64,000 nucleotides of DNA from Orenia marismortui DSM 5156 (lineage in GTDB: Bacteria > Bacillota > Halanaerobiia > Halobacteroidales > Halobacteroidaceae), in contig NZ_KB900623.1 of assembly GCF_000379025.1 (NCBI RefSeq), positions 108,334 through 172,333 of the forward strand, read 5' to 3'. Under the pieces are notes generated by a model. It worked only from the letters and a program-made list of their open reading frames with translations. It was not told the DNA's origin and searched no databases. This document shows, piece by piece, positions 6,574 to 59,894 of this stretch (the first letter of the stretch is position 1; each line of letters opens with the position of its first letter). Made by a program: the position numbers and the translations under genes.

Positions 6574-6604
6574 AAATTTATCATTTAAAGTTAGACTTAA
6601 GGGA

Positions 6605-6700
6605 GAGTATGCGATATTTCAGTAACAAGTAATTAGTGGCGAGTAAGCAGTAAATAAATTAACTTGTCATCTGTTACTAGTTATTGTCATTTTATACTAA
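6605..6700. repeat. Dispersed palindromic heptamer element 2 (AGTAAxx type)
   Basis: Between ltaE and aroE, TATGCGATATTTC opens a run of 7-bp units (cAGTAAC, aAGTAAT, tAGTGGC, gAGTAAG, cAGTAAA), then a TAAATTAAC hinge, then the complementary arm built from GTTACTA and GTTATTG. It closes with TCATTTTATAC. The hinge and right arm are shared with elements 7 and 8. Confidence 0.7.
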
Positions 6701-29119: not shown

Positions 29120-29629
29120 ATGAAGCTATTAGGTGCTTTGATTATAATTATCAGTAGTAGTATGATGGGATTTTTAATGGCTCAACAATATATCTTAAGG
29201 CCAAAGCAATTAAGAGAGTTACAAACTGCTTTACAGATGTTGGAGACTGAAGTTAGTTATGGAGTTACTCCCTTACCTGAAGCCTTTACTAAGTTAGCGA
29301 AGAATTTTTCTGAGCCTATTTCTAATATATTTATGGCGACTAGAGATAATTTGAATTCTGGAATTATAGCAGAAGATGCATGGCAGAATGCTATTAATAA
29401 TGTTAGTAACAAGACAGCTTTAGTTGATGAAGATATTGAAATATTATTAGATTTTGGTTATAACTTAGGGCAAACAAGTATAGATGAACAGGTTAAATAC
29501 TTAAATTTAACTCAACATAAATTGGATAATTTGTATCAGCAAGCTTTTGATGAGAAAGAGATCAAGGTTAAGCTATGGAGATATTTAGGGGTTTTAGGGG
29601 GGCTTTTTTTAGCGATATTAATCTTTTGA
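29120..29629 (+). CDS. spoIIIAB: Stage III sporulation protein AB (169 aa)
   Basis: It has an N-terminal membrane helix, a cytosolic helical domain and a second C-terminal helix (LGVLGGLFLAILIF). The block YILRPKQLRELQTALQMLETEVSYG (positions 26-50) matches SpoIIIAB, a GspF-like platform protein of the channel. The length is standard. It starts 13 bases after spoIIIAA. Normally spoIIIAC follows within a few bases, but here 425 bases of non-coding DNA intervene, including a dispersed repeat and a GC-rich block. Confidence 0.93.
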   Translation: MKLLGALIIIISSSMMGFLMAQQYILRPKQLRELQTALQMLETEVSYGVTPLPEAFTKLAKNFSEPISNIFMATRDNLNSGIIAEDAWQNAINNVSNKTALVDEDIEILLDFGYNLGQTSIDEQVKYLNLTQHKLDNLYQQAFDEKEIKVKLWRYLGVLGGLFLAILIF

Positions 29630-29658
29630 TAATATAAATTTTCAAGTTTAGAGTAGTT

Positions 29659-30006
29659 TCTTATAGATATAAAGTCACAGTAAAGACTGACTAGTAATAG
29701 GTGACAAGTTAATTTATCCGATATTTAAGCGGCTCTAGTACTACTTCTTTAATCTTAATTACGAAATGTTGAAGCAGTATGAAGGACGTTCTTTAGGTCA
29801 TACTTGGGGCATCGAATCTTCCTAACTCTCAGTGGCTTTTAGGAGATCCCTTGGGTCATGCGTTGGTACTAAGTTTCAAGGGGAGATAAATTCTTTTATC
29901 TTATACGCAATGTTGATCGTGGTACTACCGAATCGACTTGGCATAACCCCCCTTTACAACTAAGAAGTCACTTTATTTACTGGTTGCTCGTCATTTATTA
30001 CTAGTT
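29659..30006. repeat. Dispersed heptamer element 7, split by a GC-rich block
   Basis: The left arm (29659-29724), read on the minus strand, is TAAATTAACTTGTCACC then TATTACTAGTCAG and TTACTGTGACTTTATAT. This matches the right arms of elements 2 and 8. A second arm (29966-30006) carries ACTTTATTTACTGG and TTATTACTAGTTA. Between them lies 240 bases of unrelated sequence. It separates spoIIIAB from spoIIIAC. Confidence 0.6.
29725..29965. other. GC-rich non-coding block inside the spoIIIA operon (candidate structured RNA or element relic)
   Basis: By direct count 76 of 180 bases (42%) are G or C in 29761-29940, compared with about 25% in the adjacent spoIIIAC. No ORF of note is open on either strand. 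Two diverged direct repeats are visible: ACGAAATGTTGA (29761) with ACGCAATGTTGA (about 29904), and TAGGTCATACTTGG with TGGGTCATGCGTTGG. TAGTACTAC near the left end can pair with GTGGTACTA near the right end. I do not recognise it. Confidence 0.5.
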
Positions 30007-30054
30007 ATGGAAGTGTTACATTCTCTTTTTATTATGAAGATGGGAGGTAATAAG

Positions 30055-30249
30055 TTGAATATAGATTTAGTATTCAAGATTGCAGGTGTAGGTATTTTAA
30101 TTTCTGTATTTAATATGGTACTTAAACAGGCTGAAAAGGAGGAGCAGGCACAAATGTTGACTTTGGTAGGAGTTATTATTGTATTAATGGTTATTATTCA
30201 GCTGATTAATCAATTGTTTACTAATGTACGCAGTATCTTTGGATTTTAG
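30055..30249 (+). CDS. spoIIIAC: Stage III sporulation protein AC (64 aa)
   Basis: This tiny two-helix membrane protein has the typical sequence: NIDLVFKIAGVGILISVFNMVL, then KQAEKEEQAQMLTLVGVIIV. I choose TTG 30055, because GGGAGG (30042-30047) precedes it and the 64-residue product has the family length. A longer frame back to 30007 starts inside the repeat. It stacks with SpoIIIAD in the channel base. It is the first gene after the split in the operon. Confidence 0.93.
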   Translation: MNIDLVFKIAGVGILISVFNMVLKQAEKEEQAQMLTLVGVIIVLMVIIQLINQLFTNVRSIFGF

Positions 30250-53359: not shown

Positions 53360-53458
53360 GTGATAGTTTAAGTGGTGAGATATCGTCGGTTCTAGGAGCT
53401 AGGTAAATAAATTAACTTGCCACCTGTTATTAGTCACTTGTTACTGTCACTTTATACC
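53360..53458. repeat. Dispersed heptamer element 8 (chimera of two types)
   Basis: The left part has GTTCTAGGAGCTAGG (GTTAGG type). The right part, TAAATTAACTTGCCACC then TGTTATTAGTCAC and TTACTGTCACTTTATACC, is the AGTAAC type shared with elements 2 and 7. The two arms therefore do not pair over their full length. Confidence 0.65.
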
Positions 53459-53508
53459 TGCTATATTCTATTTTAAAAATTGGATATTTATAAAAAGGAG
53501 GAGATTAA

Positions 53509-59604: not shown

Positions 59605-59800
59605 TGTCGAAGGATTATTACAGGAGAAAAGTTTATGGCTTTGCCGACGGGGCAAATCTATAGTTGTCCGACTATAGATGAAACTCTCAGGTTAAATACT
59701 GTAATATGACGGCACTCTGGAGAGACTTATAAAAGAGCACCGAAGGAGTAACCTGAATAAATTTCAGGGTAATCTCTCAGGTAAAAGGACAGAGCAAAGG
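59605..59800 (+). promoter_or_regulatory. Tandem glycine riboswitch
   Basis: Two aptamers are visible. The first contains GAAACTCTCAGGTTAAATAC (59689-59708). The second contains GGAGAGAC, AGAGCACCGAAGGAGTAACC, then AATCTCTCAGGTAAAAGGACAGAG (59771-59794). These are the family hallmarks, including CTCTCAGGTAAAAGGACAGAG. Binding glycine should control the downstream terminator and thus the symporter. Confidence 0.93.
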
Positions 59801-59894
59801 ACAAATAGTAGTTGATTATTAGTTGCTAATTATTACTTCTTATCTAATGTTATGGAGCTAAGAACTCAATAGATCTATTTGTTTTTCTCCAGAG

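Follow-up and report, generated by a model that had tools for sequence, protein, structure and literature searches.

The spoIIIA operon of Orenia marismortui DSM 5156 raises the question of why spoIIIAB and spoIIIAC lie so far apart, and of what the G+C-rich block between them is. The locus was analysed within a 64,000-nucleotide stretch of contig NZ_KB900623.1, hereafter called the window. The ORF coordinates confirmed that 425 bases separate the end of spoIIIAB (29120-29629, + strand; Pfam PF09548, E 1.2e-54) from the start of spoIIIAC (30055-30249, + strand; Pfam PF06686, E 5.5e-17). The latter begins with TTG at 30055, a position that agrees with the starts in relatives, and is preceded by the ribosome-binding site GGGAGG at 30042-30047. 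SpoIIIAA, AB, AC, AD and AE were all recognised by Pfam. According to the first-pass annotation, the two genes are normally only a few bases apart. This applies to most relatives, with 20-40 bases from the spoIIIAB stop to the conserved spoIIIAC motif in G003, G006, G007, G008 and G025, whereas the same distance is 68 bases in G005, about 190 in G004, about 256 in G002 and 536 in G001. As G002 and G001 are congeners of O. marismortui, a long AB-AC junction is therefore usual in the genus.

The base composition of the block was then compared with that of its surroundings. The block is indeed richer in G+C, but the contrast is smaller than the first-pass annotation had claimed (about 41% versus 32%, instead of 42% versus 25%). 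G+C content was 40.7% at 29725-29965, or 39.4% when taken over the exact element (29713-29976), compared with 31.6% in spoIIIAB, 30.9% in the window and 28.6% in the repeat arms, and only 1.7% of the 241-bp windows across the 64 kb reached 40.7% or more. The other features noted at first sight were borne out: a repeat arm stands on each side of the block, in the form of 19-nt inverted arms (29690-29708 and 29987-30005), a 13-nt direct repeat is present inside it (29760-29772 and 29904-29916), and the ORF list contains no ORF in the core.

When the block was searched against its own genome, 42 matches of two kinds were obtained, corresponding to the outer arms and to the core family. The outer arms are part of a palindromic repeat of about 90 bp (GTGACTAGTAACAGGTGAC...), and the core is a separate family. 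The left half of the palindrome (29669-29712, unstranded) carries GTGACTAGTAA-type heptamers and matches dispersed copies in the same genome and in G001; the right half (29977-30014, unstranded) was delimited by genome matches, the inverted arms and the joined-flank alignment. In that alignment, 29718-29976 was removed and the flanks were joined over a single TTTAT, upon which paralogues of the outer repeat aligned through the junction without a gap (e.g. L029, 82% over 104 bp, and L025, 77% over 124 bp). The empty site is thus a paralogous one, and the result refers to one such site only. The 19-nt arms enclose a loop of 19 nt, and the insertion point lies in this loop at distances of 9 and 10 nt from the two arms, that is, in the loop of a predicted hairpin, and such a position suits a single-stranded target. 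The outer arms in the window have themselves diverged. These alignments indicate that the element landed in the loop of an older palindrome and so passively widened the gap between the genes.

The junctions of congeners G001 and G002 and of more distant relatives lack the element. Those of the two congeners contain other repeats together with recognisable pieces of the same outer palindrome. Within the genus, then, the palindrome probably predates these inserts, and each lineage has since been invaded in its own way. The suggestion that a mobile-element relic had entered a palindrome is supported by a multi-copy family with fixed ends, a paralogous empty site and relatives' junctions free of the element. 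As separate observations, a different G+C-rich block (CCTCGGGG, CTTCGGGGTT, with similar hairpins) occupies the G001 junction (L138, about 977-1512), where it sits between remnants of the same outer palindrome and has no Rfam match. Two more stretches of the window, 53407-53492 (- strand) and 6604-6681 (- strand), contain copies or fragments of the outer palindromic repeat of GTGAC type, the former with an unoccupied loop of sequence AAGTTAATTTATTTACC.

The search for homologues of the core in its own genome revealed a multi-copy family with identical ends. About 40 two-ended copies from G000, G001, G002 and the distant G025 measured 39 to 408 bp and carried no gene. The left end of the family reads TTTAT followed by CCGATA..TAAGCG.CTCTA, and the right end reads CTAAGAA(G/C)TCACTTTAT. 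With family ends, other copies and the empty site as guides, the window copy was assigned to 29713-29976 (+ strand; 264 bp with both TTTAT pentamers), the inserted DNA proper being 29718-29976 (259 bp). The left target pentamer TTTAT (29713-29717, + strand) abuts the left end, and one TTTAT is left after joining the flanks; the right terminal pentamer TTTAT (29972-29976, + strand) was defined by comparison across 56 elements. Among these 56, the left pentamer was TTTAT in 38, and the right one was TTTAT in 34 and TTGAT in 12. The two pentamers were unequal in 26 of the 56 elements, and in several genomes the right one differed systematically from the left (TTTAT/TTGAT), so simple target duplication offers no explanation.

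Elements of the family consist of two domains. Helices P0 (ATCC/GGAT) and P1 and hairpin P2 make up the left domain, in which internal loops separate P0 from P1 and P1 from P2. The right domain is a long imperfect hairpin, P3, set back from the end by about a dozen bases. In the predicted fold, the segment linking the two domains is paired to the right tail. The window copy is a decayed and enlarged form of the family, of which only the right domain is recognised by the covariance models. This domain, P3 plus tail (29869-29976, + strand), scored 30.4 bits against model R3 (E 5.9e-6), which had no other match in the 64 kb; its long imperfect P3 is enlarged at the apical loop by a hairpin module and is decayed relative to sister copies. 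Model R2 of the left domain did not match the window copy, whose left-end module TTTATCCGAT..TAAGCG.CTCTA.. (29713-29772, + strand) has diverged and has an expanded P2 hairpin; the corresponding query segment 81-143 recurs in other copies. The hairpin module of about 57 bp (TATACGCAATGTTGATCGTGGTACTACCGAATCGACTTGGCATAA; 29892-29948, + strand; query 263-319) gave repeated matches in L004, L013, L015 and others, and it recurs in the same genome in tandem, with two to three repeats in other copies. In G104, other modules were found within P1-P2, P2, the linker and the P3 loop. Larger copies, the window copy included, would thus arise by adding or duplicating hairpin modules in loops. By inspection, short forms of 45-57 bp resemble products of deletion between short direct repeats, AAAACTCCC being one example. 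Also by inspection, four G104 copies (L295, L297, L298 and L299) have extra pieces in the linker and the P3 loop that seem mutually complementary (CCCTAAAGGATTAG / CTAATCCTGTGGG), and two others (L313 and L314) have only the first of these pieces.

The distribution of the family was assessed with R1, a covariance model of the short form (about 135 bp). R1 was seeded from alignment A1, which includes one artificially trimmed row (L006 minus its apical module) and serves as seed for R1 only; alignments A2, A3 and A6 consist of genuine sequences. R1 was matched from end to end in 30 out of 300 phylum genomes, representing 22 genera and 15 families, and several genomes contained at least 11 copies, 11 being the largest number of candidates scored per genome. 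Searches of Rfam 15 with gathering and E-value thresholds (the window, 15 loci from the wide search and 6 further loci) returned no match on the element. The same window does contain a glycine riboswitch aptamer at 59707-59802 (+ strand; RF00504, 62.8 bits). Meanwhile, phage, plasmid and IMG/VR collections, searched by similarity or exact patterns, gave no match, and a literature search found no description of the family. It is a previously uncatalogued family, present in at least 22 genera of one phylum. Two loci from a single genus (L183 in G073 and L185 in G190) carry a near-identical element with identical 12-bp flanks, which points to an old shared insertion.

Covariance analysis across relatives revealed strong covariation in support of the two-domain hairpin fold. 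In 62 distinct elements, aligned by fitting to the model, standard pairs filled 95.4% of the paired cells and two-sided changes occurred in 29 of 36 pairs; when partners were slid by 1-3 columns as a control, at most 45% remained paired. The first alignment, made of close relatives and not fitted to the model, gave a similar picture, with 94.9% paired and double changes in 7 of 21 pairs. An intact 136-bp copy folded as single-stranded DNA had a z-score of -7.6. All 60 copies examined were intergenic and in either orientation, and where both flanking genes were co-directed, 24 elements ran in the same direction and 23 in the opposite one. The helices, again in alignments fitted to the model, contained 37 G-U versus 49 A-C cells, one near-invariant G-U pair being left out. 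G-U was thus tolerated no more than A-C, neither strand having the wobble tolerance that an RNA would lead one to expect, and so the fold seems to be kept as DNA rather than as a single RNA strand. Taken together, the lack of orientation bias and of wobble bias favours selection on DNA hairpins.

The non-coding RNA proposed in the first-pass annotation has to be weighed against these data. The proposal is right about conserved structure; what the family does not display is an Rfam match, a fixed orientation to genes or an RNA-type wobble bias. One could still suppose that the family is at heart a structured RNA, be it regulatory or mobile, which is copied via DNA, and that the window copy acts on the spoIIIA mRNA. 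The strong fold conserved over many families, the conserved internal-loop residues and the sense orientation of the window copy to the operon would fit. We nevertheless regard this as highly improbable, given the unbiased orientation, the G-U counts and the Rfam result, and also given that the window copy has neither promoter nor terminator and shows no unusual stability when folded as RNA (z -1.1 and -1.5), and that congeners carry other sequences at the same junction. A likeness to the 11-nt GAAA-tetraloop receptor (CCTAAG...TATGG), seen in the genus-1 copies, was discarded: the spacing does not fit, and the motif is absent from other families. More locally, the insert may have acquired a function in the operon, reducing spoIIIAC-AH in comparison with spoIIIAA-AB as a co-opted attenuator or processing site between the cistrons. 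Intercistronic hairpin repeats such as BIME and ERIC can reduce downstream expression or destabilise mRNA (PMC3049150), and long, repeat-laden AB-AC junctions are present in each of three congeners. Against such a role, each congener has a different junction sequence, other relatives have a normal short junction, and the P3 hairpin of the window copy has decayed, which together make co-option quite improbable. The related proposal, that the block sets the SpoIIIAA-AB ratio as a processing site, finds no support, given that congeners differ at the junction and the same element occurs at many unrelated loci. Neither a conserved regulatory RNA nor an operon processing site is supported. No terminator-like site was found in the window copy, and its promoter-like matches were no more than expected by chance. 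Transcription would read through with little effect on the operon, a local effect is probably nil, and the insert is most likely a tolerated, co-transcribed passenger.

From sequence comparison, the block is likely to be a copy of a non-autonomous, non-coding mobile element that moved as hairpin-forming single-stranded DNA, in the manner of palindrome-associated transposable elements (PATEs), and grew in the manner of BOX elements. A trans-acting transposase of the IS200/IS605 type (HUH, Y1) would recognise the element hairpins on single-stranded DNA and direct insertion to the 3' side of TTTAT, with no variable target duplication; the target here would have been the single-stranded loop of the older palindrome already present between spoIIIAB and spoIIIAC. 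IS200/IS605 elements insert at a fixed target, lack terminal inverted repeats, carry hairpins near their ends and use a guide-like pairing. In the present family, the complementarity between the linker behind P0 and the right tail exceeded that of 2000 out of 2000 row permutations, a comparison that ignores relatedness, and it was weak in G000 and G025. A search for the parent at 40 TnpA/TnpB loci found no matching ends except one relic, and IS605 TnpA/TnpB was rejected as the parent since the Y1 and TnpB genes examined lack element ends. The relic (L205:916-966 in G240) is a P1-P2 piece just upstream of an IS605 tnpA, outside the apparent end of the insertion sequence. Left and right ends were paired in four genomes, of which one is a single contig: all 47 pairs had a spacing of 119-186 bp and none one of 0.2-6 kb, as an autonomous copy would; the orphan ends inspected belonged to truncated or module-enlarged copies. 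No case of transposition between strains was observed. TnpB was not found in G001 or G030. Y1 proteins of about 250-300 aa occur in many element-bearing genomes, and a 182-aa Y1 protein resembling REP-associated tyrosine transposases (L051, G000:C1:1069287-1069682) has flanks without the element. PF01797 proteins were not found in four element-bearing genomes; G187 (13 left/right pairs) and G164, in which no PF01797 gene was found, nevertheless have abundant copies. These last two genomes, along with the lack of an autonomous copy in the four genomes searched by end pairing, lend some weight to the family being moved by something other than a Y1 (HUH) enzyme, such as a DDE transposase acting on weak ends or an undescribed factor. 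We hold this only tentatively, as the lack of terminal inverted repeats, the constant target, the unequal pentamers and the guide-like linker-tail pairing fit a single-strand HUH mechanism better, and loss of a Y1 gene may have followed the spread of the copies. It is also conceivable, if rather unlikely, that the family is a widespread, minimal class of mobile element with no autonomous relative, its two-domain single-stranded DNA fold being maintained by covariation throughout a phylum, in which the linker-tail pairing would mark the cleavage site for a host or unrecognised enzyme and hairpin modules would be captured in loops.

Dependence on a parent transposon usually limits non-autonomous repeats to a single species or genus. 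The present family, for which no parent transposon is visible, maintains one fold in at least 22 genera and 15 families of a phylum, as dozens of compensatory changes show. This raises a testable question, namely which enzyme moves the element and why its fold is conserved. The clear insertion into the loop of a DNA palindrome bears on the targeting of single-stranded hairpin loops, and the covariance model is ready for annotating copies that are absent from Rfam. For the spoIIIA operon the message is an ordinary one: the long gap is repeat DNA and not a conserved regulator.

Among known systems, classical MITEs of the DDE type differ in having terminal inverted repeats and a variable target duplication. 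The REP/BIME/REPIN and TIR repeats are hairpins associated with RAYT/TIRYT Y1 transposases (PMC3733652, PMC3116915), and the present family resembles them in its hairpins and in the Y1 proteins of about 250-300 aa in many of its host genomes. However, its ends are TTTATCCGA and TCACTTTAT rather than 20-40 bp palindromes tagged GTAG or CGTC, its fold is much larger, and the Y1 genes examined are not flanked by elements. The right end that encodes the omega-RNA of IS605 TnpB is likewise structured and lies beside a T-rich target motif, but the TnpB right ends in these genomes were not matched by our models. BOX elements of Streptococcus pneumoniae measure 67-637 bp, have terminal inverted repeats and target duplications, and are linked to ISSpn2 (PMC3049150). 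As described, they are like our family (39-408 bp) in being structured, intergenic and parasitic-looking, and their boxA-(boxB)n-boxC build has an analogue in our elements, where a constant module stands at either end and the number of modules in between varies. Our family differs from them in its phylum-wide occurrence, its TTTAT target, the lack of inverted repeats between its ends and the unequal pentamers (26 of 56). PATEs are non-autonomous relatives of IS200/IS605 in Haloquadratum walsbyi (PMC3119063). They differ in that our family has no IS605-type element with matching ends, grows modularly by tandem hairpins and keeps its two-domain fold across 15 families of a phylum instead of in one species. 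Both are non-coding, lack terminal inverted repeats, have imperfect palindromes near both ends and a constant terminal targeting oligonucleotide with no variable target duplication, include very short forms (39-57 bp in our family) explicable as repeat-mediated core deletions, and are nested in or host other repeats. Thus, while no parent transposon was found among the loci examined, the element works like a PATE as far as its anatomy goes.
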